64,000 nucleotides of DNA. Origin: Tribonema minus. Lineage: Eukaryota; Sar; Xanthophyceae; Tribonematales; Tribonemataceae. Positions 8,710 to 63,732 of the stretch are shown in pieces (within the stretch, counting starts at the first letter, position 1; every line of letters starts with the position of its first letter). The position numbers and the translations under genes are program-made. The stretch covers positions 186,001-250,000 of the forward strand of contig JAFCMP010000008.1 of NCBI GenBank assembly GCA_017506865.1, given 5' to 3'. The notes beneath the pieces were generated by a model. That model saw nothing but the letters and a program-made list of their open reading frames with translations. It did not search any database and had not been told where the DNA came from.

Positions 8710-10905
8710 GCAATGCCAGACCATCGGCGGCGGATGCATTACGGGAGCGGAATAGAAAGATCGCCATGTACATGCTGAGTGTTGTGGTTGGCGTGGGTGG
8801 CGTGAGCTATGCTGCGGTGCCGCTATACAAAGCTTTCTGCCAAGCAACAGGTAGGAGACATGATGCTGAACCTCTTGCTGAAAGGCTCCATGTTGACCAC
8901 TTGACAATCGTGCATCACGAAGGTGATCGTCTGCGTACGTACATGCCTCACAACAAGTCGGCATGTTGACTCAGCATGAGGCAGTGCGCCTGTGTCGAGC
9001 TACCAACGGTGTCGCGGCAGCATTGCACTCGGTGGAGTAAAAGGCGCTTTGCATCACTGTCCGCGTAATGGTCCCACACATACTGGCACAACACTACAGT
9101 ACATGAGTGCGTACAGTCACACTTTCCGCGGCAGGGGTAGGGTTAGGGTTAGGGTTAGGGTTAGGGTTAGGGTTAGTAACCAAGCGCTCACACTGCGCTC
9201 CCACATACCTGCACACCCCATCACCCCCCCTTCTCCCCCAGGCTCCGTCGGCACGACGCAAGTCGCGTCGCGAGAGAAGACCGACCGCATGGTGCCGGCA
9301 GCAGCTAATGTTCATAGTATATTTTTTCTTTACTCGCTTTGCAAAATTTACGTTTCACTCTCATGTACTACAATCAAAATCATCCTTATCCCCAGGCTTC
9401 GGCGGCACGACGCAAGTGGCGTCGCGAGAGAAGACCGACCGTATGGTGTCGGCAGCTGCTAATTTTCATACTTCAAAGTAATATATTTTTTCTTTACTGT
9501 TTCACATAAACTACACTTACTCTTACTAAAATCAGAACCACCCACCGTTATCCCCAGGCTTCGGCGGCACGACACAAGTGGCAACTCGAGAGAAGACCGA
9601 CCGCATGGTCCCCTTGGCCGACTCGCGGCTGATCACCGTCACGTTCGACGGCATGGTCGCCGACACGATGCCGTGGCGGTTTCGCCAGTCGCAGAGCGCG
9701 GTGCGCGTGGTGCCGGGGGAGACGGCGCTCGCGTTCTACACGGCGAGCAACCCCACAAAGAAGCACATCACGGGGGTCGCGACGTACAACGTGTTTCCGC
9801 TGAAAGCAGGTGAGGGCTGGGGGGACTCAGGATTAGGGTCAGGGTTAGGGTTAGGGTTGAGGTCAGTGCTGCGTGTGCGTTCCCGCTGAAAGCAGGTGAG
9901 GGCGCACGCGCGCTTGGGGGGGGGTAGGTACAGGGTTAACACTTCAGGGTTAATACTTCAATGTATCATATTGAGGGTAAGGGTCAGGGGTTGCTTGCGT
10001 GTGTGTTCCCGCTGAAAGCAGGTGATGGCCGCGCGCCTGGGGGGGATCAGGGCTAAGATTAGGATTAGGGTTAGGATTAGGATTAGGGTCAGGGGGTGCT
10101 GCGCGTGCGTGCCTGCCTCTTGGTCTTCGTTGAATCAAATGCTGAGCGCAGTTAGGAGGCAGCACTATCGCGTGTGCATTGGAAGCATGTCACACGACGT
10201 ACAGGGAAAGGTGGCAGGCCGATGTGGAAAACACACAAACATGGCCATAGGCCATGTACCATCGATGCGGTCATCACTGGCTAGTCAGTGCATATGTCCT
10301 CGCGTCCAGCCATCTTCAACATCCAACTTCAACAGTATGCAGCGCGGCCGTGCTGCGTTTGCGGATCGACAGCTCAACACGGCTGAGGCAATCGATGTGT
10401 GTGCGTCAGGCATTCGCCATTCATGCCCTTAAAGGAGGTCTTAGCGTGCCAGAACTGTAGTCACTGAAAACTTCACCTTCATACTCATGGTCGCCTTTTC
10501 GGCGTCTATTCTACTCACATGCTGGTAACCGTTCACCCCCCTCTCAATCCTCCCCAAGGCATCTACTTCAACAAGATACAGTGCTTCTGCTTCGAGGAGC
10601 AGCGGCTGAAGGCCGGCGAGGAAATCGACATGCCCGTACTGTTCTTCATTGATCCCGAGATGTTGGACGATCCTGCCATGGACAACGTCAGCGATATCAC
10701 GCTGAGCTACACGTTCTTCAAGACGGGCGAAGAGGATGCCGTGGAGGAACCTCAAGTTGTAGATGAAGTTGAGGAAGAAGATGAAGAAGATGTCGGGGTA
10801 ACTGCTGCGGGGCGCGGGTGGAGATTAGGGGGGTGGTGGCAGTGGTTGAGAGGGCGCAGAGGGGTGCCAACGGCTACGGCTGGTGACGCTGTTCCACAAA
10901 TGTGA
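8710..10905 (+). CDS. COX11: cytochrome c oxidase assembly protein Cox11
   Basis: Cox11 delivers copper to the CuB site of the Cox1 subunit, anchored in the inner mitochondrial membrane and facing the intermembrane space. Exons 8710-8850, 9558-9809 and 10559-10905 join in phase. Exon 1 has RNRK then a single membrane helix ([20 protein letters not shown]) and FCQATG. Exon 2 begins GFGGTTQ and has the conserved MPWRFRQSQ...[15 protein letters not shown]. Exon 3 carries the copper-binding CFCFEEQRL and DITLSYTFF. After the conserved core there is an unusual tail of about 55 residues, first acidic (VEEEDEEDV) then Trp/Arg-rich. About 245 residues are seen. The 5' exon with the targeting peptide was not found. 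Both introns contain copies of the exon edges (see the repeat entries). Confidence 0.93.
9138..9176 (+). repeat. interstitial TTAGGG tract
   Basis: About six tandem TTAGGG units lie in cox11 intron 1, about 65 bp upstream of the first echo splice site. TTAGGG reads on the sense strand of the host gene. Confidence 0.9.
9242..9450 (+). repeat. two upstream echoes of cox11 exon 2
   Basis: The true exon start is at 9558. Two copies of CCCCAG plus the exon start begin at 9242 and 9396, coding [18 protein letters not shown] before losing similarity. The sequence after each copy (poly-T, TTTCTTTACT, ...TTATCCCCAG) is also repeated. The unit of 154-162 bp is therefore intron end plus exon start. Either echo could act as a decoy 3' splice site. 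Confidence 0.9.
9810..10098 (+). repeat. two downstream echoes of cox11 exon 2 with TTAGGG tracts
   Basis: The exon end TTTCCGCTGAAAGCAG|GTGAGG (9809) reappears as TTCCCGCTGAAAGCAG|GTGAGG at 9895 and TTCCCGCTGAAAGCAG|GTGATG at 10021. TTAGGG-like tracts lie at about 9826-9866 and 10040-10098, between and after the echoes. Confidence 0.9.
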
Positions 10906-11401
10906 ATAAACGCCTCGTTGTAAAGTGTTCTGTGAGAGGATGGAGTGGTGATGCTTGCTGTCTGGCGTCACACCCTGCATGTTTGTCTGATGCAGAGCTG
11001 TTGTTGTTCGTACATTGCATCTTGCTGCTGTGCCTTGTCAGGGCATGTGCATGTGTGCAGTGTACGGCAACAAGGTTGGCATCAACCATCTGGGCATATT
11101 CGCGCCCTAAGCGAGGCATCTGCGTCTAGAAAAGGCGCATGTACACACTTGTACACTCATTCTGAACTAATCCAATGAAATTTTGATAAGTGTTGCTAAG
11201 GAGGTTTTCGAACTGCAACCCTAGTGTCCTTGAACTTCCAAAGCGAGACACGAAGAGCACACACCGCTTAAGCCACCAGGCGATTCCTTAGCGGCAGTCT
11301 GCTGCTGCACGCTGCAGACGCTTTTCCTGCACCCGGTGGTTCCTGAAGACCTTTGCCTGGGCGATCTCCAACGGTGAGAGCCGGGTCTCGCAGATATTGT
11401 C
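10906..11401. other. cox11/CBS interval
   Basis: AATAAA follows two bases after the cox11 stop and TGTAA lies about 15 bp further on; both are close to the stop for a poly(A) signal. A copy of the dispersed ~60-bp repeat lies at 11072-11120 (minus). A degenerate tRNA-like stretch at about 11203-11285 was rejected as a gene. Confidence 0.4.
11072..11120 (-). repeat. dispersed ~60-bp repeat, copy 1
   Basis: Reverse-complement reading gives CTCGCTTAGGGCGCGAA...GCCCAGATGGTTGATGCC. Related copies occur at 17155, 19164, 36534, 38637, 59863, 60296 and 62786. Confidence 0.7.
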
Positions 11402-14400
11402 ATGTTCACAGCCAGCGCGATCCTGCACAGGAGAGGAGCAGGCGCTCTGCTGCGAGCTGGCCGCAATGGAAATGTCTGGAGAGCAGCTCAGAGGGGGATG
11501 GCCGTCGCAGCTGAGTCCGAGGAGACAGAGGGTGAGCATGTTCAGAGCCCAAGGATATATCGATATCCTCTGGATACACAGCCCCCCGTTCCCATGAATT
11601 CTTCAGCGCCAGTACAGTGTTCCGCGCTCATGTGTATTGCGTGCTGAACAAGCAGCTCCGGCCGCACCACTCTGCGCCGCACTTGATTCATCAGGCAGTA
11701 CTTGCCAACGTATGAAGAGGCGTATAGACTGTAGTGCATCTGCGGATGGCTGGCGACGACGTGAGGATGCAACACTGCGTTCAGCATTACCTCTACCACA
11801 CTCATCGTGATGATGGTCATCTCTGGCAGCGTTGCTCCTGGCAGTGTTCTGTTCCGGCCCTTGATGGTTCGGCTGATCGTCATCGTCAACGGACGCGATG
11901 TACAGCGATGTTGTTCCAGACAGTGCACCTCATTGGCGTTGGGTATGTCAAGCAGCGGTTGTTGAGACCTTGAGCTTGCTTTTGTTCCTCATCAAAGAGC
12001 ATGCTGTTGGCTACGTTCATGTCGTGCGGCACGCGTCCGCTTGCATTCAATTCAGAGCTCTGGCGCGCAGCAGTTCCAATGCTCCTGTCCAAGAACCTGC
12101 GCCATGGATTTCGGATTTTGAGAAAGTGAAGCAGCAGGACAGCTCTGTCGGCTGCGACCGCTGAGTAACCATGTTCTCCAATGCCACCATTGTGGTGCTC
12201 CCCTACATTGAAAACCATGCACTGCACAAGCACCACCCAAACGCTGCTCTGATGCCGCAATGTGAGGCGCGATTCAATTTGGAGTTGTCTTTTGTGTTTC
12301 GCTGCAGCACAAGTGGTTTGTCTTGAAGCATCGTGGATTCTGGTCACCTGCTTGGGCCTTCTAACGCCCTGCGCACGTTTGCTTATTATGCCTCTTGTGG
12401 CCGCCAGTTCGGACAGCGCAGCACGCGTGGGAGAAGTCATGCTACTACAACATCGACTACATGATAGATCAGGCGAGTGCTCGGAGCTGGTGTACATCGA
12501 AGTTGTTGAAATTAGTAGAGGTCTGAACTTCTCGATTGATCGCACACATTTATAATTATAAGCTGCTGTCAATTCTCCGAATGCAGGGGTGGGCTACATT
12601 CAAAGACCCGTGTTGACTGGTTGCGCAGATAAGCCAGAACCCCTCCGCTGGCAACTCTCATAATGCAGGCGTGAGCCACATATCTACATTCAAAGACCAG
12701 TGTCTGGCAGCTGTTACATGCACGCGATGCATGTCATGTTGTGATGAGATGAGATGAGACGAGCCCTCAGACATGTGTCACATATGCACAAGAACAGATA
12801 CTTGTGTACAGGCACAAGTTGAGGTGGTTTGTCAATATGTGTGCTCCCCCTATTGGCGGCGACCGCGAGCATGTACCATCGACAACTACTACTGTCACGT
12901 AGGAGCACCCCCCGCGTCCCCCCCGCCCCACCCCCCCGCTTCAGAGTGCCTTGCGAATCCCCCTCTGCTACGCCAAACCGTGTGCCCCTTGCGAATCCCT
13001 CTCTGCTACGCCAGACCGCGCGCCCATGAGAGCAAGGTGTACTTGGATCAATCCTCGCTGAGGGCACGAAAAAAAAAAGAAGAGAGGTACTTCAGTAAAA
13101 ACTGCTTCGAAAGCTGCCATGTTGAAGTACACGTTTCAAAACGCTATCAGTTGCAGCACCTGTTCTGAAAGCTGCCATGTTGAAGTAGCGCGTTCTCCTC
13201 CACTGTGAACTGCTTTGCCGACTGCACCTCCCCCTCTGCCGCGCCGCCCGCGCTCGCAGGAGAGCAAGGCGTATGACGCCGTGCAGCGTATGTATGACAT
13301 CCCAACACCAAGAGCGAAGACGGTCATGCATGCATCATATTCCAACACCGTTGATCAGTTATTAACATTGCCGCGCCTCCCCCTCTGCTGCGCTGCTTGT
13401 GCGCACAGGAGAGCAAGGTGTATGACGCCGTGCAGCGCATGGCAGCGTTCAACGTCGGCTGCCTTGTGGTGACAGAACAGGTACATAACACTGGCGCCAA
13501 TATAGTCACCATGTATGTATGCAGTATGTCCTTGAGCGAGCAGTAAATTATCCAATGAAAAACGTGGAGAATCCGTGTAGAGCAGTGCAACATGGCAGCG
13601 TTCAACGTCGGCTGCCTGGTCGTCACCGAGCAGGTAACGCTGACACCAATAGGTGACCATGTATGTAGTCTATGTATACCGTTGATCTGTTGTTGCGAGG
13701 CGCTTGCATTGGATGCCGATGCACAATTTCATAGCGGTTCTCTGTGGGGGGGGCTGCCTGCATGCCACGGGAAGCGCTGCCGCGCTGCTTGCTGCCCGCA
13801 TCTGCGTTCAGCTGATTCACTCACAAATTGTGCTGCTGAGAGTCGAAGTTAGGGTAGGGTTAACCCTCAGCTGCCCGCTGAGTGCACAAAGTCATTGCAC
13901 GTCAGAGGGCTGTTCACCAGCTGATCTACACACTGGACATGAAGCGCCATAACCTAGCCGTAACCTAACCTAATGCTAACCCTAAGGTAACGAGGGTCAT
14001 GTCCATGATGCTGGACATCCCACACCAGCATCATGCAGGGGCGGCTGTGGCGTGGCCACGTAGCAGACGCTCCCACTTCAACTATCACCGTACTTTAAGT
14101 GTATACGTCATCACCTAACTGTCTGTTGTCCTGATGAAAGTGCGCGTACTCGGTTTCAAAGAACATGCGGCGTCAGCGCACACAACATCAGGCTACAGTT
14201 ACACTATTTATGGCAGTTACATTTGGTGACGACAGTGCTCGGCAGGCTTGCCCTGACGTTGACGCTCCGTGTTCGTTCTCTGTTGTTTTCCCGCGTGCTT
14301 CAGAGCAAGCCGGTTGGCGTGATAACGGAGAGGGACTATGTGTGCAAGGTGGCGCTGCTGGGGCGGAACTCCAGGGAGACATTCATCAAGGTGGGTTGCG

Positions 14401-16734
14401 GCCTAGAAAACGGGTTCAACCCCAAGACTACAGTTGAAGTGGAAGACTTGGGTTGCACTCATAATTTCACACAGAATTCACTATTGCTGGCGATGTGAGC
14501 AAGTGATGTTGACTTCAACTCAGAGTGCAAGGTGGCGCTGCTGGGGCGGAACTTTCATCAAGGTGAGGTTGCGGCCCTAGGACTAGGGTTGCACCGGAAG
14601 ACGTGGGTTGAGCTCAACAGCTTTTATTGAGACTTGGCAGGCGATACAGCAGTGATGTGTCACTGATGTCAACTTCAAGTTGGAGTCACACTGCGTACTT
14701 CAAACTATCAGAGCATGCTGCTGCCGCTGCTGTGAAGGATTCTAAGGGGGCCCTAAGTGGGGTTATGACTCTACAGTAGGGGTGGGCTTCAGCATGCGAC
14801 TTGATCAGTCAAAAGACAATGCCTGCCACGTCTGCATCAGAGGCGGTGCTGTTGAACAGAAAATAGCTTAAAATATGCAGGCGCTGTTGGCAAGGATAGA
14901 GCTACAGACATCGTGCTGTACCGGAGTAAGGTGCCTCAGACACCGTTGAAGTTTCGCCTCATTCAGCCCTGTGAGGGCGACAACTTCAAGCGTGCCATGA
15001 AGTATGTAATTTCAAGCGGAGTTTAAATTGCAGTGATCAGGACGCACTGTTGTGCTTTGTTGCTCGGCTGCGGGCGCGCACACTGAAGTTGAACCTTCAA
15101 GTTCGGTTGAAAATGGCAGAGGATCCACTTGCAGAAATGAGGTGCTGATATGCACAGTGCAATGAGGTGCTATATACAATGCAATGAGGTGCTATATACA
15201 ATGCAACTAGCTGCTGCTATACTCACTATATTCGCAGTTCTGCTATCACCCGTCAAAGTGCTGTCACTCAATTGATTCGCTTCTGGTGTTGATCAATTAG
15301 ATGCTGCTATGCTCACTCTGTTCATTCAATATGTATTCATCGCGTGCAACAAGAAGTGGCAACGGCGCTCAAAGCGGTGGTGCGGCGGTCACACTCCATC
15401 GACTCATTCATCAACATGACAATGATGGGAGTATTTAGTCTATGCGCAGTTCTAGTATTACTGCTTTAATCACTCTGTGCAATTGATATGTGTGCATGGC
15501 GTGCAACAGGAAGTGGCAACAGCGCTCAAAGTGGTGGCGCAGCGGTCCGAACCCATTGACACGCGCGTCAACACGATCACGGCCCTTTTTTATGCGTGGT
15601 TACTACTTTTATTCGATCAGGTGCTGCTGTACTCAGGAAGATGCTCTCATGCTAATGCCAGACATAATATTTTGCACGCACATGACAGGAAGTGGCAACA
15701 GCGCTCAAAGTGGTGGTGCGGCGGTCCGACTCCATTGACACGTGCGTCAAGAAGATGATCACGGCCGACGTGAGGCACCTCCCCGTGCTGAGCGACGACA
15801 ACGACGAGATCATTGGCCTCATATCCGTCAAGGACCTGGTCAAGGAGGTGAGCAGTGCAGCTAGGAGAGAATTGCAGCTTCAGAATTGATTGGGCTTATG
15901 GTCATTGTCCTGTGAGCATGTGTATACGTACATACACCCAATACATGGATCGTCACCTGAGCGACGGCAATGACGAGATCCTCAGTCTCATATCCGTCAA
16001 GGATCTGGTCAAGGAGGTGAGAATTGCAGCTCGGAGAGAAGTGCAGCTTTGGGATTGGTCTTATGGTTATGGTCTTGTGAGCATGTGTATACATACATGC
16101 ACCCAACATATGGGTTGACATCTGAGGGATGGCAACGATGAGATCATCCGTCTCATATCAAGCGAGGATCCGGTCAAGGCGGTGAGCATTGCGGCTTTGG
16201 TTATCGTCTCATGTTAAATATTGACGCCTTGCTGAGCGACAATAAAGATTCGGTTAATATCAGAGGACTTTGTCAAGGAAGTGAGCATCCGATTTACCAG
16301 CCCTAGCTCAACCCAACAGTGTGGGGGGGGTGCGGTGATGCGGTCATGAGACTCGTATTTGTCAAGGATCTTGTCAAGGAGGTAGGGTTGTGGCTTTGAG
16401 GTGATCTGTCTGACTTAAGGGTAGGCTTTCGGATGGGGGCAAGGCGATAGAAATAGTGACATGTCTCCAAGTATACTTGCTTAGAAGTAGTGAGATCTCT
16501 TGAAGTATACTCACTACATCTGGCTCGTACTCTTCACTGTCTCGATGATGCCAGCTACAGCAGCCTTCCATACACCTATGCCTTTCACCCGTGTACCCTG
16601 ACCCCTTGGCTTATCTGTCACCGCCACTGCTGCTGCTGCTGCTGCTGCTGCTGCACCTTCTTTTACAGTACACCAAAGAGAAGGATGAACTCCTGACCAA
16701 GCTGTTCGGCGGCAACCTCTCTGGCTACCTGTGA
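11402..16734 (+). CDS. CBS-pair protein, mitochondrial-type (CBSX3-like)
   Basis: It has tandem CBS domains, which bind adenosyl ligands. Plant CBSX3 relatives are mitochondrial redox regulators; the exact role here is inferred. Core exons 13409-13480, 14304-14390, 15689-15847 and 16669-16734 are all in phase 0. They encode VYDAVQRMAAFNVGCLVV, then GVITERDYVCKVALLGRNS, then RHLPVLSDDNDEIIGLISVKDLVKE, and a short tail ending SGYL and TGA. A likely first exon is 11402-11531: MFTASAILHRRGAGALLRAG... is Arg/Ala-rich without acids, like a mitochondrial presequence, and ends at a GTGAGC donor. Its phase (1) means at least one exon between 11.5 and 13.4 kb, covering the start of CBS1, was not found. 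The gene is rich in exon echoes. Confidence 0.85.
13028..13408 (+). repeat. upstream echoes of CBS exon 13409
   Basis: The true exon begins CACAG|GAGAGCAAGGTGTATGACG. GAGAGCAAGGCGTATGACGC recurs at 13260 behind GCAG, and GAGAGCAAGGTGTACTTGG at 13028 has lost its AG. Pyrimidine-rich CCCCCTCTGCTACGCC-like lead sequence is repeated too. AAAGCTGCCATGTTGAAGTA occurs twice (13110 and 13168). Confidence 0.85.
13481..13633 (+). repeat. downstream echo of CBS exon 13409
   Basis: The copy ATGGCAGCGTTCAACGTCGG...CAG|GTAACG ends at 13633, 153 bp after the true donor at 13480. It still codes MAAFNVGCLVVTEQ with synonymous changes, so it is young or was under selection. Confidence 0.9.
14391..14562 (+). 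repeat. downstream echo of CBS exon 14304
   Basis: TGCAAGGTGGCGCTGCTGGG...TTCATCAAG|GTGAGG ends at 14562, with an internal deletion of CCAGGGAGACA relative to the true exon end. Period 172 bp. Confidence 0.9.
15354..15688 (+). repeat. upstream echoes of CBS exon 15689
   Basis: GAAGTGGCAACAGCGCTCAA behind ACAG is repeated at 15510 and, with one base lost at the junction, at 15354. Spacing is 156 and 179 bp. The older (more distal) copy is the more diverged. Confidence 0.9.
15848..16381 (+). repeat. four downstream echoes of CBS exon 15689
   Basis: The exon end GTCAAGGACCTGGTCAAGGAG|GTGAGC (15847) reappears with ends at 16016, 16181, 16280 and 16381, each followed by GT. Similarity falls with distance. 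The first copy still reads DGNDEILSLISVKDLVKE. The second has LISSEDPVKA. The third and fourth keep only the last 15-25 bases. Confidence 0.92.
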
Positions 16735-16992
16735 TGGCGCCCTTATTAGCATGGTTCAGGCGTCTCGACATTTTTGACAGAAGCCACGCAGCGCAGCGCC
16801 TGTCATAGGCCACCTGACAAAAAGCATTCAAAACGGCGGCGACACATTGCATCCGCAGCGCGCTTTTCACAAGTATGCTGCATGACTGCCGTTGTGTGCT
16901 GTAGGTGACGCCCCAGTTTCCGCTACTTCATGTCCAAATAGTCGTCAGGTATCCTGGAGGGTGAACACTCCGTTTTAATACTTCAAAGTACT

Positions 16993-19900: not shown

Positions 19901-22649
19901 CCATCCAAACTTGAAGTTAAAGAAATTGAGGTTATTGAAGTTGAAGCTCCGGGGCCCGTGGCGGACCCGGAGGCGCTGCGTGCGATGCAGCTGCGGGCGC
20001 AAGTGTCAAAGTGCCTTGCGGCGCGGCCGCCGGCGGCGGCGGAGATGTGCGCGGCGGCGTGCGCCAAGGCCAAGAACGTGGGCCCAAGGTGACGCTCCTA
20101 AACTCTAACTTCGGTGACACTTCCTAACGCCAACTTCAATGTTGAGAACTGAAAGTGTTGGCAGCGAGGAGACAGCCGCCGGCACGCGCGTGCAAACGCT
20201 GCCTGTTTCTCGTGTGCGGTGCGCATCATGTAGGGGTTTAGAGGTGGCGTGTGTGCTGTCATGCTGTGCTCTGGAGGTGTGTTCGGGTCATCACCGAAGC
20301 GCAGTAGCATTCGCTCCTGTGCCTCATGACTCTCGGATCATGTGGTGGCAGCATTATGCGCCGCAGCTTCAGGGAACGTAGGCCCAAGGGTGCCCCCCAA
20401 TTTGCTGTCCGTCTGTTCAACCTTCCGGCTCGAAGCTTGCAGCCGGGGCATCAGCATTACCTGCATGCGTTGCTGAGTTGTGCTCTTGGGTGCGCAATTA
20501 GGTCATTGATGCACAGCAGCAGGGTGGCACAGTGCACTCAAAAGTTGAAGTTGTGGTGGAGAGTCCTCGTTGTGTCTGCGCCGTACAGTTCCTGGGTTGC
20601 AGGAGTGCGTGGCTTGCCAATAGTGTTTTACAATATCTTACTTGTAGTAAGACCCTCTTCAGAACATCAACAATCACCTCACATTTGCTAACAAGACAAC
20701 GCATCAACCACAAACACTCGTATTTTGAACGACCTGTCATGCGAGTATGGTATCGGCAGCCTGCTGCACCGGGCATGGCGGACTGCAAGAACGAAGCAAT
20801 GGAAGCGTGGAAAGCAGCAAGCCGAACAACATTTAAGCCTGCCACATTGGCACAAAAACACGCTGCAGTTTCCTGGTGCCACACTCATTCCTGAGCACTG
20901 CTGCGTCCACCTAACCCCCCCCCCCCCCCCCCCCTCATTCTCAGGGCGCTGGCCTACCAAGCTTGCATGACGGGGTGCGAGAGGGGGGCGGCGGGGGGGT
21001 GGGACGGGGCGTGCAAGGGGGGCCCCACCCCCATCATGGACACCAAGGCGGTGTGCCGACACGTGGCCGCACGCCAGGACTGCCGCGCCGGCGCGTGCGC
21101 GCGCTTTAGGTGAGCTTTGTTTTATTGATGTAATTTGTCAAATGCCTCTTGTGGCTGGAAGTGCCTTGCTGTGTGGTGGTTGGCCTTGTTTTCACTCTTG
21201 GACGTAGCATGCATAGGCAGGACTGCCGCGCCGGCGCTTGCGCGCGCTTTAGGTGTGCAAGCGCTGAGCGCTGCCTCTGTGATTTTATGTACTCTTTATT
21301 GATTATCGCGCCCTGGTGTCCATGATGGGGGTGGGCCTCCCCCTTGCACGCAGCCCGCACTTGCTTGCGGTTTAGGTGAGCAAGTGCTGCCCATGTACTT
21401 TATGTACTTTTTATGTACTTTTCAGCAATTCTCGCACGGCAGGACTGCCGCGCCGGCACTTGCGCGCGCTTTAGGTGAGCTTTGTTCTATTAATGTACTT
21501 TTATTATATTCCACGTGTGGCTGTGGAAATGCCATGTTGTAGGTGTGTCGCCTTGTTCTCACTCTTGGATGTAGCATGCAAAGCTCGCACGCCACACCCC
21601 GCCCCCCACATCACCCCCAACAAAGCACCCGCAAGCGACTGTCCCCCACATACTAGCAGGGATACCAAACAAAGCTACAAGACTCTCCCCCCACAGACAG
21701 ACCCGTCTTAGGGCCACCCAGCTCCACGCAGACTCCATCTCAAAGTTTTCATGCAGGCCAAGGTCACCATAATGGGCCCTGAACTGGAGATTGTGGCTAT
21801 CTACGTGAACCCCTATTAATGTACTTTGTCAAATTCCTCTTGTGGCTGGAAGGGCCTTGCTGCGTGGTCGTTGGCCTTGTTTAGGGTTAGGGTTAGGGAT
21901 AGGGATAGGGTTAGGGTTAGGGTTAGGGTTATGTGGCATGCAAAGCTTGCACGCCGCACCCCACATCTCCCACTACAAAGCTCCCGCTAGCGGCTGTCCC
22001 ACACACGCAGGGAGGAAGTCCTTGCGAATCTACTTGATTGCATGACCACCACGTCACAAGCAGACCCGCGCATGTAGTTTGCTGAGTCCCGCTTGAGGGG
22101 CAGACACCCCATGAATAATGCAAGATATATCTGCAGCTCTTGTGCTCAAGGTCAAGCGTGTGTTCATACGCGATTGCAACCTGCCTGTGTACAGGAACTA
22201 TCCGAATAGCTGTGCTTAACGGCATCCCCACCTGCGCCGCAAAGGTGCAACCATTTGCGCCGTGACACTGCACCCACGAGCGTCATGGGCTGTACCCACG
22301 TGCTGCCTCGGACATGCTGCCTCACATGGGTACCACAGCTGCAGCCCCGTGCAGAGCGCACAGCTCTGCCAGCACAGCTGCGTGGCCGGTGCAAACGCCC
22401 CCCATACCTCTTCTCGTTCCGCTTCACATCTACTTCATCAGCTTGCTGCTTTGAACACGCGCTCCGACTAACACAAACCGCTTCTGCGCCCTGCTCACTC
22501 CTGTTCGCCCCACACGCAAAACGGCCATCACCAGGAGCTCCTACCCACGCCCCCTGGTGCTGAACCAGTGCACCAGCGGCTGCGTGGAAGGTGCCAACCT
22601 GGCCTGTGCACAGAGCAAGGCGTACCTCACATCCATCAACGTGGAATAG
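16993..22649 (+). CDS. single-pass membrane protein with Cys-rich C-terminal domain, unrecognised family
   Basis: Three well-supported exons, 19712-20088, 20945-21109 and 22535-22649, join in phase to 219 codons if ATG 19712 starts the protein. They encode a basic segment (KEKRRDARRHFKHLKK), one membrane helix (TVMIAATLIILFILVRVL), a Pro/Glu linker, then paired cysteines (EMCAAAC, ACMTGC, DCRAGAC, QCTSGC), ending SINVE and TAG. The Cys domain probably lies in an oxidising compartment. Possible extra 5' exons are 17961-18181 (CEHTRNTRLLDCLQC...), 17177-17276 (VAKTPDGQMIDVKLA) and 16993-17031. All are phase-compatible with 19712, but 17177-17276 overlaps a dispersed repeat, so the start is uncertain. 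No function is proposed. Confidence 0.6.
17155..17220 (+). repeat. dispersed ~60-bp repeat, copy 2, overlapping a candidate exon
   Basis: It reads GATTCTCGAATAG|GTCGCGAAAACGCCC...CAGATGATTGATGTCAAGC. The AG of its core coincides with the 3' splice site of candidate exon 17177-17276. It is the only copy with an open continuation. Confidence 0.65.
19164..19229 (-). repeat. dispersed ~60-bp repeat, copy 3
   Basis: The reverse complement reads GTACTTCTATTAATTCTTGC, TCAGAGCGCAAAAAAGCCCA, GGCATCTAAGCTTGC. It lies in the intron before the exon at 19712. Confidence 0.7.
21110..21474 (+). repeat. three downstream echoes of exon 20945
   Basis: The true end is GACTGCCGCGCCGGCGCGTG...CTTTAG|GTGAGC at 21109. 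Copies end at 21252, 21375 and 21474 (spacings 143, 123, 99). The last is nearly identical, including GTGAGCTTTGTTcTATTaATG after the donor. The first intron bases and the TGTGGCTGGAA...GGCCTTGTTTTCACTCTTGG block also recur, so the unit is exon end plus intron start. Confidence 0.92.
21881..21931 (+). repeat. TTAGGG tract replacing part of a repeat unit
   Basis: Copies of the intron unit at ~21149-21220 and ~21519-21590 read GGCCTTGTTTTCACTCTTGG then GTAGCATGC. In the copy at ~21839-21945 the TTCACTCTTGG segment is replaced by about eight TTAGGG/ATAGGG units, after which GTGGCATGC resumes. Confidence 0.85.
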
Positions 22650-27676: not shown

Positions 27677-30600
27677 TCATGTCGCGCGCTCGCCTGCGGC
27701 AACAGCAGCAGCTGCACCAGCAGCAGCCGCAGCAGCAGCAGCACCAGCCGTGCCAGCGGCGGCGCTCGGCGATTCCGCAGATGTTGCCCGCGCCATCTTT
27801 GCGGGCGCACCCGCTAGCTCGTGCTGCGCGGCGCGCTTTTCGGGGCGACGGCGGTCTACCACGGCACCGCCGCCGCCGCCGCCGCCTGTAATGGGCTTAC
27901 TCTGCGTTAGCTGCTGCTGCTGCTGTTGCTGCTGCTGTGGCACTGCTGGAGGTGATACCACAGCACTTGCTTCACCTTCAATCTTGCTGTCGCCGCCCCC
28001 TGCTGCCTGTGTGGGCTGCTGCTGCTCCTGCTGTTGCGCCTGCTGCTGCTGCTGCTGCTGCTGCAGCGGCGCCGAAGGCGGCGGCGACACCGGTTTTGGC
28101 ATGTCCTCATCGTTGAAGAAACCTTTCATCCCCCCGGCTTCCCTTTCCAGTATCTCATCTAACCCCCCTTCAAAGAGCGAGTGCATCTCACCCGTGTCCC
28201 CGAAGTCGCCAGCCATGGCAGCTCCTGCGGGAGCGTTGATCGTCCATTCGTGCTCGTGTGGTGTGGCGTCTGCGGGCAGCGCTGACAGAGCACTGCCGCT
28301 GGTGGTGTCGTCAGCCCCGCTTGCAACAGCGGCGGCGGCGGCGGCAGGGGCGGCGGCAGCAGCTGCAGCGTCAGGCCCACCAGCAGCAGCAGCACCTCCC
28401 TTCAGACCCGCAGTGGTATCGGTGCCAGCAACAGCAGACTGCGCAGCTTCCGCCGCAGCGGCATGCGAAGTGGCAGCAGCAGCAGCAGTTGAAGTGCTGG
28501 CAACAGCCGGCGCCGCCGCAGTAACAGCTGGCGCCGCCGCGGCAGCTGCTGCAGTTGTGGCGCCAGCGACAGGCTGCACGTCACCGCCACCAGCAGCAGC
28601 AGCGGCAGCCGCTTTGCGCGACAGGACGCGCGTCGTGCGGATGCGGTCAAGTTCCGCGCGGCAGTCGGGATCGAAGTGGCGACCAGGCTTGGTGGGTGGG
28701 CCAAGGGCGTCCGGATCGTCGGGCGCCAGCTGCAGGATGATGGCCTCGTAGCTCTCAATCTGCAGCAGAGGAGCAGCGCAAAACTGTGCTGTGACACAGT
28801 GCATTTGCTGTTGACGTGACAGCCGTGTCAGAGATTTGGGGCTCAACGTGCGGCAGCGGGGCGGCGTGCTGTGGCACCAGTCGCAGTTCGTGCGCTGTTG
28901 ATGCCGCCGCCGTTTCATAGAATGTGGATCATCGTGCGGCAAGTTGTGTAAGGTGACCTTTGACATGCTTGTAGCTGTTTGCAGTGTGTTCTGGATACTG
29001 GCGCGTCAGTGGCGTGTCGACTAACCTTGCCCCTAACTTGATCCTTAGCCCAAGCCCAAGCTAATTCATGGCATTGCCCACTGCTACTCTGTGCTGGCCT
29101 ACCCTTATTTCAAGCCCAGACTAATTCAAACGTTGCCCAGTGCCACTCTGTGCTACCCTGACCCCAAATTCTAAAAAACTTATGGTCAAGAGAAAGCAGA
29201 CCAGCGTGTATGCCTGTATGCTGTCCAATGGCTGGCATTGCTGAGCGCTGACATGTCAGAGTCCAGTAAACAAAGCATGCACAGTGCTGACTGATGCTTC
29301 CTGAGCATCGCTGCTCAGCCAACGCTTCAACCACTGCAGGACTTGCAGCATTAAGGATACCGCGACCCTCCTGTGAAGGACCCGGGATGATGTTGCTTGT
29401 CAATGAGCTGCAACAAAATCCTGAAAAACTGAGCCATGCTCTGCTGGTGGTTCAACTCACCTGTGTTTTTGGTACTTTATACACTTTCCCAAGTACTTCA
29501 AGGGCAGAACTGAATTGCATTGACTAACAGCGATGCCCCAGGACAGCCTCAATGCACCCAGAATTCACTTCATCGGTCAGGACTCACAACCACCAATTCC
29601 TGATGCAGATCGCCGTTCATTGCTGATTCACTGCAACAACTGATTCTGAGTATAAATATTCCAGACGGCTGCAAGCGCCTTGAGGCTTTATCGCTGACGA
29701 TTCGTCATGACCACAATTGCCCAAAATATGCAGGTCACGGCGGTAGCAATACTGCCAGAGTAAAAAAGGACCGGGGGCTCTATGGTTTTGGAACCATGAG
29801 TCATTGTACCTACACTTTTGTCGTTTTGGGTTACCACTGAAACCTCTACCAATGCTTCAAAGTAGTGTCCAAAATGTATGCAAATGCGCCGCTATGTCTC
29901 CGCTCCAGCTCTCACCTGATAAACTGATCTTCAGCTGTTCTTGATTTTGGTGGTATTTATCCCTTTTTGATTGGATCCTATAGAATCAAACTAGTATATG
30001 GAATGTACGTGAGCGTGCCGCTATGTGCATGTTCCACCTCTCACTTTGCAGTGCAAGCGTGCCTTCAAACCTCGCTTACCACTCACCACCGCGTAGCCAC
30101 CACAATTGCCCGAAACACGCAGGTCTTGGCAGCAGCGACTGTGCCAGTCCAGCAACATCCAAGTAGTACCTGGAATGTACACAAGCATCCCGCTACGCGA
30201 ACATCCCGTCATGTTCCCGCTCCACCTCTCACCTTAGCGCGCAGCGCGGACGTGCCTTCAAAGCCGGGCAGCACTGCTCCGCTGTCGCCGCCGCCGCCGC
30301 CGCTGTCGTGCGTGTCGGCGCCGCGCAGCTTCTGCCGCGTGTGCACCAGTTGCTGCGGAGCGATGCCACCAGCAGAAGTGCGCAGTGGTCAGAGCGGGGA
30401 CCGGGCTTGTAGAACTGAACGATATTTGATTTCAGGTAACCATTTAAAACTACTTGTTGACCACGCACTCAGTGTACGCATCACAATCCGGCGAAGTGTG
30501 ACCTTGTGCTGTAAGGCTAGTGCGCGGAGGTTGCAACGCTCAGATGCCGGCCGGCGCACGCGCATGTCGAGCGCACTCGGGCATTTCCGCACTTAGTATC

Positions 30601-41909: not shown

Positions 41910-44872
41910 GACTCTATACAAACAGCATGGGTGTTTTGAAATGGGTAACCTGCTTTGCGTAAGTAGTTTGCCATTGAGCACGCTGGTACAAGATCGATTG
42001 TCAAGGCCTCAAGATCTACATGTGCTTGCATCCAAGTGTGTCTGGATGCAGGAGATCTGTCAGCACTAGTTGCACATACAAAGTACTTAGACCGGGCATA
42101 AAAGTGTGCTTGGTGCTGACAGGCACAAGCAAACTATATAGCCGCTCAAACCTTGTGGCCAGCAGCTATTCTGTCAAGAGTCAATAAGAATCATTTACTA
42201 TTGTTTTCATGCCCAGCACGCACTACATGGATGACTCATGCACCAATGAGAACACATAGACTACAACACAGGAATGAATCATATGAGCGGCAATCAAATA
42301 CCACTGCCAAGTGAACCCAACTCTGCAGCCGCTTGCAATGCCGCTTGTATGGTACGCCGCAGGTTCATCCCTCCGCCGAACAATTACAATTGGCGCAGCT
42401 GGCAGTATCAGAAACAAAGGGGCGTGCTACTTGTGGCCGAGCATTGCCATGCCAGACCAGCGCTGCCTCGCATCACGCCAACACAGTCATTCCAATGCTC
42501 TAGCACTCACCCCCCCATTGTCCTACCCTCAGACTCCTCCAACTGCTTAGGACAGGGGCACTTCCCACTGTACCACAAGGGGTTGCGCACTGTCTGGTCA
42601 GACTTTCCCAACCATTTGCCTCCACATGCTGCCCTACCTCACCTTGTCCCCGCCCCCCCCTTCCTACGCGCAGTCAGTGGCGGCTTGCCTGTATGCCTCA
42701 CATCATGCAAACATATTCCCTTGCACGGTCTCGCACTCACCCACCCATTATACCCCCCCAACCCCCCCCCCACCAACCCCCCCCTCTCACCCCCCCCCAT
42801 CCCTCCTACGCGTATGCCTCACATCATTCCAACACACTCCCTTCAACGGTCCCGCACTCAGCCACCCATTGCCCCCCCCACCCCCCGCCCCCAAACCCCC
42901 CCTTTCCCCCCCCCCTCCCTTCCCTTCCATGCGCAGTCAGTAGCGGCTTGCCTGTATGCCTCACATCATGCCGACATGTTCCCTTGAACAGTCTCGCACT
43001 CACCCACACGTTGTTCCCCCCCAACCCCCCTCCAAACTCACCCTTTCCTCCCCCCCCTCCCTCCCACGCGCAGTCAATGGCGGCTTGCCTGTATGCAGTG
43101 CCTGCCGGACACTCACCCTCCCATTGCCCCCCCCCACCCTCCCCCACCCCCCTTACACGCAAACAGTGGCGGCTTGCCTGTGTGCAGTGCCTGCCGGCCA
43201 CTCACCCTCGCAGTGTCCCCCCCCACCCACCCCAACCCCCCCTACGTGCAGTCAGTGGCGGCTTGCCTGTATGCGGTGCCCGCCGGCTACGGCGCGCGCC
43301 CCATGCGGACCCTGCTGTGCCGCCGCTGCCACTCCGAGGAGCAGCTGCTGAGCAGCTCACACGGCGGCACGTCACCTGATGCTGACTTCGATGACAGTTA
43401 CAGCGGCAGTTTCATGAGCGAAACCGACGGGGGTGCGGACGCGTCGGAGCCAGCGCGCTGCGATCTGCAAAGCACGTCTATCGGGGATGCCGCATCGGAG
43501 GCGAACTTCAACGCCAGCGTACACGCCCGTCAGTCGAAGATGGAGTTGAAGTTGGAGGTGCCCGCTGCCAGCGCTTCATCGGACGCCGCCCTGCCTGCCC
43601 GCTCGCTGTTCTACTGGCCAGGCGTCTTTACGCCAAGGTGAGATCCTATTAGTGATTTACTTCTTCTTGAACCAAGTACAAGGCAGTGCTGAGTGGGGGT
43701 ATACGCTGGCAAAGTCACTGCTTACGAAGTTCTGAGATAGGCGTCTGTGAGGTGTGAATGTCTTCTACGAAGCAGTAATTAAGAACAACAGATGCAGACG
43801 ACTAGGATGCCCCAGCCTCCCCGACATACGCCCTCAAGTGCCCGCAACCTGACGCTTTTGGTACCGCTGGCTGAAGAAATGAATTCCGGCTGATGCAGGA
43901 GCAGACCCATGCCTGCTGCAGCACTGTAAGCACAAATGCAAAGCAGGCAGGGACCCATAAATGTTGCCTTGCCGTTCACTGCTCCGCGCCAGATGCGTGG
44001 CACTGCTAATCCCACGTTATGTCATTACAGTTTGTATAGAATTCTTCCTTGTGTCTGTGCATGATATCGATGTCACGGTGCAATTCGCATGTTGTTCCGC
44101 CCAACGAATTCATAGTGCTCTGTTCAGCAAGCATGGACATGTAAGGTTTGCCACTGCTGCCGCCGCTGCTGCCGTACACCTGTGCTGAAGTGGACAATGG
44201 CTACGGTGTCGAGAAGCTATCATTTGACGAAGTACTTGAGTACCTGGAATGAGTGCACTTCACTCAGAGCGAAGTACTGAACCTGAAATGACCCATCTTC
44301 AAGAGCAGTACATTGCCTTGTGCACATGACACACGCGCGGCGCAGAACTCGGTGCCGCTGTTGTGCCTGCAACAACTTGCCCGCAAAGCCCCGTCCCCTT
44401 TCCACTTCTGCACGTGGAGCCACTTTTGAAGCATGCACGCACTGTACACGAATGTGCTGACGGTGATGACGATGGCCGCGCTGTGCGCATCGCAAGCGGC
44501 AGGCCACTTGGGCTACATGTATCAGCAATATCTATTAGTACTGACTGTGTTGAAAACGTTGCATTTTTTTCACGTCTACATCAGATTGTGTCACTCACCA
44601 GGCATGCCCGCCCCCTCTCTCAACTTCTGCACCCGGTCCCACAAAGTGCAGCACACCGTGGGGCTATTAGAACACAGGAGCTATTGCAAGTACATGACAC
44701 CAAACCCATTCACAATGTCTGCTAATGCCGCAGGTGTGCGGCGCCCGCCTCGCCCAATGGCAGGGCGCCACGTGGCGGCGTCACGCTGGCGCTGCCGGCC
44801 GACTACCAGACGGCGCGCGAGCGCAGGCGTGCGCGCCGCTGCCACAAGTGCTCCGGCAAACTCTGCCTCTGA
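41562..44872 (+). CDS. small protein with N-terminal hydrophobic segment and C-terminal CHKC zinc-type motif, unrecognised
   Basis: Exons 41562-41642, 43252-43637 and 44734-44872 join in phase to exactly 202 codons. MEAILSMAAEGMAWHQPAAI leads into a hydrophobic stretch (AATCAMLSVAACLYAVPAGYG) that spans the first splice. Next come CRRCHSEEQLL, an acidic Ser/Asp-rich middle (SPDADFDDSYSG), a KMELKLEVPA segment, LFYWPGVFTPR, and a basic tail RRRARRCHKCSGKLCL with TGA. CRRCH and CHKC could together bind zinc. It may be membrane-anchored with the Cys motifs outside the helix. Exon 1 lies inside the first intron of the opposite-strand gene that starts at 41909. Function unknown. Confidence 0.65.
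42674..43251 (+). repeat. four upstream echoes of exon 43252
   Basis: GCAG|TCAGTGGCGGCTTGCCTGTA (true start 43252) is preceded by copies at 42674, 42937, 43074 and 43162, with a shorter CTACGCGTATGCCTC remnant near 42815. Each follows a long C-rich pyrimidine tract. Copies nearer the exon are longer: those from 43074 and 43162 reach TGCAGTGCCTGCCGG. The 43162 copy has lost the AG. Confidence 0.93.
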
Positions 44873-59862: not shown

Positions 59863-59925
59863 TGTACTTTTATTAATTCTCGCTCAGGGCGCGAAAAAGC
59901 CCAGATGATTGGCATCTAGCTGTAA
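59863..59925 (+). repeat. dispersed ~60-bp repeat, copy 6
   Basis: It reads GTACTTTTATTAATTCTCGC, TCAGGGCGCGAAAAAGCCCA, GATGATTGGCATCTAGC. It is the best full-length representative. Confidence 0.75.
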
Positions 59926-60295
59926 GGAATCTACATGTCGTATGACAGTCTGAAAGTGTCGCAACGACAACCACTCAAACGCCGTGTACTTTTATGTAGG
60001 TGCACTCAAAGGTCATCAGTTCTCAATCGGCCAGTGATCGGGACAACTGCCGTGCTTGCGTCTGACGAGTCTAGCTGCACAAGTGCGGCACCACACGACA
60101 CAACAGGCAATGTGACAAGTGCAGCACACTGCATACACTTATGCGGGCCAACGCTCACACTTAAGGTCGTGTTCAGTGTGACAGATTCGGCACATGGCGC
60201 GCAGGCATTATTGATGGCTGCAGGCCAATGAAGCTGCCGCGGCGTGTGTATGCAGTGCTGTCTGGCTGAATCCGCATAGAAGTACTTCAAAACAC

Positions 60296-60330
60296 ATGCT
60301 CTGGGCTTTTTCACACCCTCAGCAAGAAAC
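60296..60330 (-). repeat. dispersed ~60-bp repeat, copy 7 (partial)
   Basis: The reverse complement reads TTTCTTGCTGAGGGTGTGAA, AAAGCCCAGAGCATG. Confidence 0.6.
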
Positions 60331-61875
60331 GAACGACACAACATGCGTGCTGACCAATAGAGAGGCAATGGCAGGAAGCAACCAAGGGGCATACAGACGG
60401 ACAAACGCACACTCTTGCGTGCGCGCAAGCACGCATTGTAAACAGAAATTTATGCACGCCTCGCTCGTTGTGCCGCCATAGTCAGGGGGGTGCATGCACC
60501 CGGCGCGCAATCCAACAGACAGGGGTACCCAATAGATGTAATGTCCTGTCACATAAATCGCCCCCTTTCTTCCGTTCTTCTCCTGGTGTCCTTTGTCCCT
60601 TGCTTCGACAGAAGCGTTGCTTTCCTGCAGGCGGCAGGGGCTGCCAAAACTGTGCCATCTACCGAGGCAAGGGGCTACGCCAACGTCAGTGGCATCGAAC
60701 AAGATGTGTACAGTCCCACGCTGGCTACAGCTGTAGTGTCGAGCTCGGCAAGCTTACACACTGTGTCAAACATACAATCAAAGAGCGCTGCCACTGCCGG
60801 CAACACCCTCCCCCCCTTCCCCTCCTCCCCCGTCCCCCAACATCTACAAGAGACACCGACGCCGCCAGCGTGCCGCACGTTGAAAATTCTCTCATGTGCG
60901 TCACCCAGGCTCCAACATCAACATACAATGTGATACGCGGCGCACACAGGTGCGCAGCAGTGCTCCTCTGCTGACAATGCTCGGCGATCAGCAGCTGCAG
61001 CTAAGCTCATGCTCAGCTACTGCTTGCGGCCAGGCGCAACAGCAGTACTGCTGCCACTTCAAGGTGTGACGCGCCGCAAGGGGCACCGCATGCCGATGGC
61101 GGCGTGCACTCCGTGTGCAGAACTGGCAATGCGTTGGCCGCACCGACGGGCGAGTCCGTGTTGCACCGCCATCAACTGGGTGAGTCAATGCGCAACAGCC
61201 CTACATCAACGCCCGCCATATGCAACACGTATTGCGAGAGACATACCCCCCTCAGGGGGGGCGCAAGATGTCTGGTCCCCCCTGCTTGATCCCCCACTTC
61301 CGCCCCCCTCCTTCGTCCAGGGGGGCTGCTTGGCACTGTCAGCGCGGGCGCATGTGGGGACACAAGCGCCAGAGACGGCATGTCGCACGGCACGTGTTGC
61401 GCGCGCGCCGCATCATTGCGAGGATCCACCTGCAACGCACCGTTGTGCAGCACGGCTCAGGCACCCACGTAGCGCTGGCCGCAGCGGCGCACTGCCGTTT
61501 TAGACCAGCGCCGCTCTGCACCACGCCGCAGCGCCAGCCAGATTTGTGTTGCTTGGCAAAGGGCGGCGTCGCACCCGCCCCTGCCTCTCAGGCGACACGG
61601 TGGCCCGACGCACCGGCACAGCGCTCGCGTGCGTCGCCGCACAGCTGTAGTCCGCACCGCGCTCGCCCGCAACGGCACGCACTCTGCCGTACGCAGACGG
61701 CGACCGTCGTTACAGCGCTCGCCGACGAGAGTGCGAGTGCGCAGCTGGCCATGCATTCATGGAGATTCGGTTGCTTGTGCGGGCGCGTTCACTGCCGCTT
61801 CGCTGCTGCTTTTTGTGCGCGCTTCACGCAGCCATCGCGGCCCTCAGCCCCCGCGCGCGCGCTCCGCCGCCGCCG

Positions 61876-63504
61876 TCACAGCGGGCACTGCGCGGTCGCG
61901 CCCGGCACGCCGTTCGCCTTGTACACGCACGCCTGTATGACGAGACCGACCACATCCGCAAAGCAGATGCCCACCGTATCCGCAATGCTGGCGGCGCTGA
62001 GCGCGAGCTCTCGCCGTTCGCGCGGCGCCTCGTGCGCGAGCAGAATAAACGTGCCGACGTACACGCCGCCGCCGAGCAGGCCCGCCGCGAGGCACGGCAG
62101 CAGCAGCGTGTAGTCGTACCACCAGTGGTGCGTGGCGTTCGCGTAGAAGAAGACGAGGAGCGTCACCTGCGCCGCCGGCATGGCGAGCTGCAGGACCCAG
62201 CGCGGCGGCGACACGAGGATGCCGCTGGAGCGCGAGATGAACACGCCCACTTGGTACATCCAGTTGGCTGCGCGCGCGCGTAAGGCGTTAGGGGCGCGGT
62301 TGAGCATTGAAACAGGACTCTCGGGTGTGATGGAAACGAATCAAAAGATCGTAGAGCTCTAGGTGACAAGGAGTGGTTAGCCGCAAGTGCCTTCCACCAA
62401 TAACCGTGGTCACCGCTGCTGCAGTCATTGGCCACGAGTCAAACAGTGCCATCATATCCACAGTAGTCAAAAGACCTCTCTGTGTCAGCTTTTTAGCGTT
62501 CGAGGGCATGGGTGTTCGGTATGGAAAGGTCTCGCGTACAATGTATTGAAGCGCTTGTAGGTGAAACATGAAATAGACGAACACGCCCATTTGGTACATA
62601 CAGCGGGCTGCGCGCGCGCGCGGCGGTGCGAAGGCACGATTGAGCATTGGCCAAGGGCTCCCATGTATAATATGTCAGAAGCACTTCGGTCATGAAAGAT
62701 GAAATGCTTCAACGCGCTGTTGTTCAACAAGTCCACAGTGCAACGTTGCTGTGCAGGGCGGACCATGTGACAGTGGCAACGCTGAATGTACTTTTATCGA
62801 TTTCGCTTCGCAAGGGGCGCGAAAAGCCCTCTCTCTGGGTGTGCACCAACGGGGGACTGTGCCATGCGGCAAGGTTTTGGATCGCAAATAAGTGATTATC
62901 ATGTACTTCCAAGTAGATGCTTGTGCAAGTGGAGAAATAGCCCCGAGGCAGGGGCGGGACAGTACCAGACTGGTGCTGGACCATGCAGTGGTGGCCTTAC
63001 AGGAGAAAGTCCCAGCATGAAGAAACCTGTGTAGGTATATGCATGCACCCAAGTAGGGTATGTAGGTATCGTACTCCGTCAGTCCAGATATACCACGCCC
63101 GGTCCTCGGCAAGTCACGCAATTTACCCAGAATACCTGCGTGCATTGAGCTTGACAAATATCTGCAGGCGGGGGTACGACAAGCCCTGCCGTCAGTGTGT
63201 CATGTTCACCACATGTGTACTTGAAGCGGGGCCTGATAGTGTGAAACGCACTTTCACTTCATATTTAACCCTCATCGTTTACTGCCTGCAGTGTTAATCC
63301 CACAGGCCTACCCCCAAGGGGCCCGTTTCTTGAATGAAACACCATCTGGGCCGTACAGCATTTATGTCCTGCCGTCAGTGGCTCAGTGTCAACACATGTG
63401 TACTTCAAATGGGAGCTGACACTGAAACACGCACCGTAGAGGTAGAACTGCCGCCTGGCCTCTTCCGACGTGATGGGGAACCCAATGGCGCTCCATGTCC
63501 CAGA
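61876..63504 (-). CDS. CLN3: CLN3/battenin, C-terminal exons
   Basis: CLN3 (yeast Btn1) is a polytopic membrane protein of lysosomes and vacuoles. It affects pH and glycerophosphodiester/amino-acid export, and its loss causes Batten disease in humans. Two minus-strand exons join in phase: 63435-63504 (WSAIGFPITSEEARRQFYLY) and 61876-62267. The latter holds the diagnostic ANWMYQVGVFISRSS (compare the YQxGVFxSRSS hallmark), LVFFYANATHHWWYDYTLLL, GLLGGGVYVGTFILLAHEAP and AASIADTVGICFADVVGLVI, ending TAQCPL with TGA. The upstream two thirds should lie beyond the right edge. The intron between the exons contains an exon echo, the conserved-peptide repeat and a dispersed ~60-bp repeat. Confidence 0.9.
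62339..62482 (-). repeat. conserved-peptide repeat, copy 3
   Basis: On the minus strand it encodes MALFDSWPMTAAAVTTVIGG then RHLRLTTPCHLELYDLLI. It sits between the last CLN3 exon and its upstream echo and so interrupts that repeat unit. Confidence 0.8.
62560..62607 (-). repeat. upstream echo of the last CLN3 exon
   Basis: GCGCGCGCGCAG|CCCGCTGTATGTACCAAATG, GGCGTGTTCG starts at 62607 and mirrors the true start at 62267 (CCAACTGGATGTACCAAGTG). Subtracting the inserted ~150-bp repeat, the original spacing was roughly 190 bp. The preceding GAGCATTG/CAATGCTCAA.CG.GCC is copied too. Confidence 0.88.
62786..62830 (+). repeat. dispersed ~60-bp repeat, copy 8 (partial)
   Basis: It reads TGTACTTTTATCGATTTCGC then AAGGGGCGCGAAAAGCCC. 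It lies in the CLN3 intron, antisense to the gene. Confidence 0.6.
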
Positions 63505-63619
63505 CTGCATCGCCAACACGTAACAACACACAACACGTAGCAGCTGAAGATGGCATTTGCGCATCCGCACACAGCAGTAAAGCCATCGTGACTTCTGCCA
63601 CATGTCTCAGCAACGTGGC

Positions 63620-63677
63620 TGCAAAACATTACGTGTATGAATGTCAAGTTCAACCCAATGGCGCTCCATGTCCCAGA
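63620..63677 (-). repeat. upstream echo of CLN3 exon 63435-63504
   Basis: GGCGATGCAG|TCTGGGACATGGAGCGCCAT starts at 63677, 173 bp upstream of the true start at 63504. It is identical for about 27 exon bases, then similarity ends at GGG|TTGAAC. Confidence 0.92.
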
Positions 63678-63732
63678 CTGCATCGCCAGCACGCGACAAC
63701 GCAGGGAGGGAAGCAACTAAGGTGGCGTTTGC

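Follow-up and report, generated by a model that had tools for sequence, protein, structure and literature searches.

Borders between exons and introns are duplicated in tandem in the genome of the xanthophyte Tribonema minus, in units of about 150 bases, and the duplications leave decaying exon ends within the introns. The copies were noticed by a sequence-only reading of 64,000 nucleotides of contig JAFCMP010000008.1 (positions 186,001 to 250,000; hereafter the window), and our analysis confirms that they are real. Copies upstream of an exon (acceptor echoes) contain AG and the exon start, and copies downstream (donor echoes) contain the exon end followed by GT; alignments around the exons bear out this description on both strands. 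More than 40 copies had been claimed, and our tally of the window gives 43: 47 were found within 1.1 kb, and four doubtful ones were discarded, namely three low-complexity matches (exons 27718 and 27976) and one at an echo mispredicted as an exon (13583). By Pfam, the echo-bearing genes of the window include COX11, CBS, ankyrin and CLN3, and predicted genes without a family also carry echoes. Such duplications are common yet patchy in the genome. With a probability of roughly 0.7, we attribute them to a common mutational process of short tandem duplication, in which exon-internal events are purged and junction-spanning events are tolerated and then decay neutrally.

Beyond the window, about 205 kb of the 158-Mb genome (554 contigs) were read, about 203 kb of which were used for the gene models. 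The exon map was produced by a self-trained hidden Markov gene finder based on coding and splice-site scores. It recovered the family-confirmed exons of COX11, a Brix-domain protein (best match IMP4), CBS, proteasome, CLN3 and ankyrin; it also fuses adjacent genes and at times takes an echo for an exon, so that exon counts are approximate. In the main test, 60-nt segments from the start, middle and end of 136 exons (at least 60 nt long and with a good coding score) were compared with 2 kb on each side. At a score of at least 23, the exon start recurs upstream in 15/133 cases and the exon end downstream in 24/129, compared with 4/132 for starts downstream and 1/130 for ends upstream. Exon middles are copied into the 2-kb flanks in 0/163 cases at score 23 and 1/163 at score 20, in agreement with the original claim that no complete internal exon is copied. 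Reverse-strand and other-gene controls yield 0–1 matches per class at score 23; at the laxer score of 20, the other-gene control reaches up to 5 in one class. These controls, a separate reverse-strand control and the random placement of arrays, which falls far below the observed number (see below), exclude chance as the source of the copies.

In a wider exon set, at least one copy is present at 76 of 325 junctions, with a total of 151 copies that includes low-complexity matches and echoes predicted as exons. Counted loosely, exons with copies amount to 13/26 in the window, 26/99 in the other, arbitrarily placed stretches and 5/11 in four conserved-gene loci (L021–L024). The strict count, with identity of at least 0.78 and no credit for repetitive coding stretches or two low-complexity exons, gives 11/26, 18/99 and 5/11, respectively. 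The statement that echoes flank most exons is therefore too strong. Strict positives occur in four of the ten other stretches (L006L007, 10/18; L010L011, 4/9; L004L005, 3/13; L014L015, 1/4) and in two of the four conserved-gene loci. The latter two, the proteasome gene L024 and the LHC gene L023, were chosen from family match lists before their sequence was seen, and strict copies are absent from L021 and L022. The proposal of a genome-wide process thus holds in that the copies are present outside the window, but their occurrence is patchy.

The spacing of the copies was analysed for 113 copies at 55 junctions, leaving out the repetitive coding sequence of L008L009 and L018L019. The median is 147 bp, the middle half spans 123–178 bp and the 5–95% range 87–224 bp, close to the claimed range of about 85–210 bp; 105 of the 113 values lie between 80 and 240 bp. 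Spacings divisible by three (27/113) are not in excess. Of all 100 local direct repeats that lie side by side in the sampled DNA, 63 have an offset of 100–240 bp, the arrays described here included. The exon part of the copies has a median length of 56 nt, with queries capped at 70 nt; in an array of L006L007 (approximately 15202–15552), at least 105 nt of an exon start are copied, more than the 20–60 nt first reported. The intron part is homologous too. In a comparison of pairs, which like the identity profiles below leaves out L008L009 and copies with an unplaceable junction, the intron z value is at least 4 in 67 of 109 pairs and below 2.5 in 32. Of 51 copies found through intron sequence alone, 34 also hold the exon edge. 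The copies are therefore tandem duplications that span the junction. Two duplications are fresh enough to show their breakpoints, with overlaps of 2 bp (window 63732–63949) and 0 bp (L006L007 16305–16446).

Similarity is higher in the nearer copies in 21 arrays and lower in 7 (p 0.013), whereas the nearest copy is the longer one in 13 arrays, the farthest in 9, with a tie in 6. The described fall with distance from the exon is thus retained as a tendency for similarity and is unclear for length. Moreover, only 10 of 23 arrays have the nearest copy as the closest match of the true junction unit, and in 10 of 23 the best-matching pair of units consists of two echoes. Arrays therefore also grow internally and in blocks. 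The suggestion that copies are born at the junction and decay outward agrees with the greater likeness of near copies, but the echo–echo pairs point to births of other kinds as well; as a strict outward ladder of births, it is unsupported.

We identified 26 arrays by local self-similarity in 73 introns between confident exons. Of these, 19 enter a flanking exon by at least 12 nt, 16 on the donor side and 4 on the acceptor side, one of them on both. Random placement within the introns predicts 4.8 (standard deviation 1.7; maximum of 12 in 2000 draws). Both comparisons that had been proposed as checks, of junction-overlapping repeats with random intron positions and of junctions with exon middles, come out in favour of the junctions in the DNA sampled. 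The donor excess is significant among arrays (16 vs 4, binomial p 0.012) and weaker by exon (36 donor vs 24 acceptor of 136; 28 vs 18 by the strict count). Within exons, local matches are found for 16.7% of the windows nearest the edge, 0.9% of those at 100–150 nt and 7.0% of those beyond 150 nt. The last class comprises 46 of 654 windows with a match within 1.2 kb; 44 of the 46 match only inside their own exon, and 42 lie in the repetitive coding sequence of L018L019. Within introns, the duplicated share of 50-nt windows is 0.17–0.23 up to 400 nt from the donor, 0.03 beyond 900 nt and approximately 0.04–0.11 near the acceptor. Because a constant exon keeps copies of its edge visible for longer, we repeated the test with exons masked. 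The duplicated share is then 0.174 in donor-proximal intron (95% interval 0.104–0.251), 0.072 in acceptor-proximal intron (0.035–0.113) and 0.081 in deep intron (0.047–0.121). Short duplications therefore occur throughout introns, and the donor side alone is richer, by about two-fold.

These observations suggest the following sequence of events. Short tandem duplications, with a typical unit of about 100–220 bp, would arise frequently in transcribed regions. If confined to an exon, a duplication would change the protein and be removed by selection, whereas one straddling a junction would be tolerated if the exon-proximal site stays in use, because the mRNA would be unchanged. Each event would add to the intron one unit that includes a copy of the exon edge and an extra AG or GT, and later rounds would copy single units or blocks, giving rise to arrays. 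The intronic copies would not be maintained and would decay neutrally. As the true exon is constant, the exon edge would stay recognisable for longer than the intron part, and we infer that exon-containing copies are recognisable about twice as long. This longer visibility, together with purging within exons, would explain much of the junction pattern. The donor-side excess probably arises because an acceptor copy lies upstream, carries its own branch point and AG and is transcribed first, disturbing splicing more; a donor copy, which follows the true donor, would do so less. A candidate for the underlying lesion is a break with long overhangs, or paired nicks, repaired by fill-in and end joining.

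Alternatively, transcription or splicing may itself break the DNA near exon ends, for instance through R-loops or polymerase paused at 5′ splice sites, and duplications would then be born at junctions, chiefly at donors. The donor-proximal excess with exons masked, the drop of the duplicated share with distance from the donor, the 19 arrays that enter an exon and the greater likeness of the nearest copies all point in this direction. On the other hand, acceptor-proximal intron has no excess, duplications also occur deep in introns, echo–echo pairs are often the most similar, and a frozen exon should by itself prolong the visibility of junction copies. We regard this targeted origin as unlikely. 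The earlier idea of a process that duplicates junctions is borne out in that many genes have undergone duplication across their junctions again and again. The evidence falls short of a targeting of junctions: with exons masked, acceptor-proximal intron is no richer than deep intron (0.072 vs 0.081), and only the donor side is. Partial, about two-fold, targeting to 5′ splice sites may exist. A length of 147 bp is that of the nucleosome core. A more elaborate proposal, in which duplication coupled to transcription or splicing favours 5′ splice junctions, proceeds in nucleosome-sized units and, like a ratchet, makes introns longer and plants latent splice sites in many genes, is speculative and rather improbable.

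Decay of the copies was followed in 100 of the 151 copies by codon position and by the state of GT and AG. Mismatches between exon and echo number 167/1765, 167/1766 and 315/1756 at the three codon positions (9.5, 9.5 and 17.9%), as expected of an echo drifting at all positions beside an exon that changes mainly at third positions; partial coding constraint on the echoes would give a similar pattern. GT is intact in 44/55 mapped donor echoes (nine more are unmapped) and AG in 25/32 acceptor echoes (four unmapped). By our own arithmetic, a divergence of 9% predicts a retention of about 0.83, so that GT and AG are lost at about the rate of neutral decay. The arrays and this loss support the view that introns have been enlarged and that decoy-like splice sites were left behind and then decayed. 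In the 97 copies used for indel analysis and simulation, 76 of 82 indels are not multiples of three, and such frame-shifting changes would argue against a general use of the copies as splice sites.

A function of the echoes, as decoy splice sites or regulated pseudo-exons under selection, is suggested by the profile of copies found through their exon part. Identity in these is about 0.85–0.90 across the final 30 bases of the exon and the initial six of the donor and about 0.67 beyond, with a random level of about 0.5. Furthermore, four exon-start copies at L006L007 10428–10657 are near-identical over about 50 nt although the adjacent upstream intron has widely diverged; this locus looks like a candidate for conversion or constraint. 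However, the step largely vanishes in copies found through their intron part, where intron identity is 0.84 and exon identity about 0.85 (the latter from alignment scores of the 34 copies in which an exon block is present). Under neutrality and with an unchanging exon, the intron and exon parts should differ two-fold in divergence, a value between the exon-found and intron-found estimates. Since the contrast is nearly gone in intron-found copies, we read it as a product of ascertainment and shuffled array history, and we rejected selection inferred from the drop after donor position +6 and from exon blocks evolving 2–3 times more slowly. Coding constraint was likewise rejected: a CBS copy (13571–13633) differs from its exon purely synonymously by eye, but the pooled mismatches fit a drifting echo as well. 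An earlier identity alignment (85 copies, 42 arrays) was uninformative, with lax gap penalties and a random identity of about 0.73. The near-neutral loss of GT and AG, the equal decay of codon positions 1 and 2 and the prevalence of frame-shifting indels also speak against function. In addition, of the LHC paralogs L022 and L023, whose exon sequence is 90% identical, only the latter carries echoes, on the acceptor side, which implies fast turnover on that divergence scale. Altogether, selected echoes are very unlikely.

Tandem exon duplication, or coding repeats taken for echoes, is more improbable still. A few predicted exons do appear to be mutual copies, in L006L007 (15202–15853) and for two exons in L024, where the four predicted exons probably include copies of each other. 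Against this stand the absence of exon middles from the flanks at score 23, the stops that three of the copies at L006L007 10428 run into, the frame-shifting indels elsewhere and the continuation of the exon beyond the copied edge. Mobile intron elements (introners) or another dispersed repeat would account for repeated units within introns, but no echo is common to other genes in the controls at score 23, and a 3.2-kb ankyrin stretch, the one region tested, is single-copy, with only telomere-like parts recurring among the matches listed; we give this explanation almost no weight. An assembly artefact, conceivable because tandem repeats are prone to misassembly, is equally negligible, as the copies have diverged from the exon and among themselves (identity mostly 0.75–0.97), several independent loci are alike, and contigs reach 2.45 Mb, several with telomere-like arrays at their start or end.

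Several points weigh against neutral decay of generic short duplications as the full explanation. The gene models are the output of our own predictor. The strict count is zero in six of the ten other stretches, a patchiness for which a generic process by itself does not account. Among pairs with an exon score of at least 30, 12/53 have an intron z below 2.5, i.e. unrelated intron flanks. In simulations of the exon-found copies, the intron part requires a rate 2–3 times higher than neutrality allows, and conversion from the exon, or constraint, may lie behind the contrast in identity. The donor-proximal share is about twice that of deep intron even with exons masked, with bootstrap intervals that overlap slightly. 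The 19 arrays of 26 that enter an exon, compared with 4.8 expected, exceed the roughly two-fold effect of longer exon visibility, and some preference for junctions may therefore remain. Finally, no intergenic window was duplicated, with only 78 windows testable.

Single junction-spanning duplications are known. The potato RdRp gene contains a tandem copy of an intron 3′ end together with the 5′ part of the following exon, and a second tandem duplication of 83 bp in its first intron (PMC4974935). The resemblance lies in an adjacent direct copy that joins intron end and exon start, or exon end and intron start. In potato, one isolated duplication gave rise to a new intron, whereas the Tribonema arrays occur in many genes, on donor and acceptor sides, and apparently keep the original structure. 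In the Rogers model of intron gain, reviewed in PMC3443670, a duplicated exon segment bearing AGGT gives rise to a new intron. There too a short internal tandem duplication provides spare splice sites, but in Tribonema the duplicate contains a pre-existing junction and lengthens an existing intron. Ends of the Rogers type, from the exon interior, were not encountered in our indirect test (starts downstream, ends upstream and exon middles, as counted above). Minisatellites and variable number tandem repeats share the tandem direct repetition of a short unit, as detected by Tandem Repeats Finder, and the repeat in ABCA7 is described as an example of intronic tandem arrays that can affect splicing (PMC5954066). 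The Tribonema unit differs in holding an exon edge and its splice site, and the exon itself terminates the array on one side. CST-guided Pol alpha-primase action is reported to generate small tandem duplications at breaks (PMC8355091); this route is a possible source, in that it is compatible with the near-blunt ends of the two fresh duplications. We found no report, in the open-licence literature, of arrays of junction copies across the genes of one genome. The assertion that nothing of the kind had been described can thus hold only for the scale of many-gene arrays, since the potato report already describes one junction-spanning duplication.

On the forward strand of the window, the COX11 exon (Pfam CtaG_Cox11, and the gene model) has its true copy at 9558–9809. 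It is preceded by a first acceptor echo at 9396–9447 (AG and about 52 nt) and a second at 9242–9296 (AG and about 55 nt), and followed by two donor echoes (9879–10021) with exon-end copies at 9895 and 10021, each with GT after it. The CBS-domain gene (Pfam CBS) has echoes at three exons: 13409–13480 (acceptor echo start 13260, donor echo end 13633), 14304–14390 (donor echo end 14562) and 15689–15847 (acceptor echo starts 15510 and 15353; donor echo ends 16016, 16181, 16280 and 16381). Two further forward exons belong to predicted genes, namely 20945–21109, with no Pfam match (donor echo ends 21252 and 21474), and 43252–43637 (acceptor echo starts 43163, 43074, 42937 and 42674).

On the reverse strand, the ankyrin exon (Pfam Ank_2; 32111–32407) has an acceptor echo starting at 32618 and six donor echoes ending at 32002, 31854, 31707, 31567, 31355 and 31218. 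Upstream of it, a predicted exon at 33764–33849 has five donor echoes (ends 33618, 33471, 33311, 33164 and 33069). Two predicted exons without a Pfam match lie at 36060–36209, with an acceptor echo starting at 36352 and six donor echoes (ends 36002, 35944, 35886, 35771, 35641 and 35547), and at 37733–37863, with three donor echoes (ends 37617, 37516 and 37414). The predicted exon at 30233–30331 has one weak donor echo (identity 0.79, end 30045), and the CLN3 exon (Pfam CLN3; 61876–62267) an acceptor echo starting at 62607. A tandem array of 172- and 108-bp units at 63479–63957, outside the tally of 43, lies at the acceptor edge of a predicted CLN3 exon (63435–63490) and contains the fresh two-copy duplication mentioned above (unit 108 bp). 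Tandem Repeats Finder reports arrays in the window at 15788, 31559, 33156, 35870, 37368, 43059 and 63479.

Telomere-like TTAGGG/CCCTAA arrays occur in the window at 9133–9176, 21881–21931, 33366–33421, 33518–33571, 33665–33694 and 37252–37730. They are mostly intronic, some of them inside echo units, and the same repeat makes up contig ends. A run of diverged 81-bp (27-codon) direct repeats at 6635–7344 is apparently another kind of array. By eye, probable GC-AG introns are present at window exons 39117–39425 and 40682–40785 (reverse strand) and at L004L005 8785–8928, where the echo also carries the GC donor. The genome contains 92 chlorophyll a/b-binding matches, which mark it as that of a photosynthetic eukaryote, and the LHC paralogs L022 and L023 seem to carry a pair of LHC domains on a single protein. 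Among solved structures, one LHC protein matches multi-domain chains best (9vfj, LHCI-11 and others) and then single-domain chains called ACPI and CAC, which are cryptophyte names. A search for the phycoerythrin alpha family yielded no match, which does not demonstrate that the family is absent. The shorter contig of the pair C70/C489 (L025/L026) is identical to part of the longer over the stretch compared and is probably an unmerged haplotig.

For gene finders, the pseudo-exons are a reason for caution. The arrays amount to natural tests of spliceosome fidelity beside near-identical decoys, and to a mutational source of alternative splice sites and new introns. They also represent intron growth that is internally dated: with a frozen exon as reference beside each drifting copy, rates of duplication, decay and loss would be obtainable from one genome.

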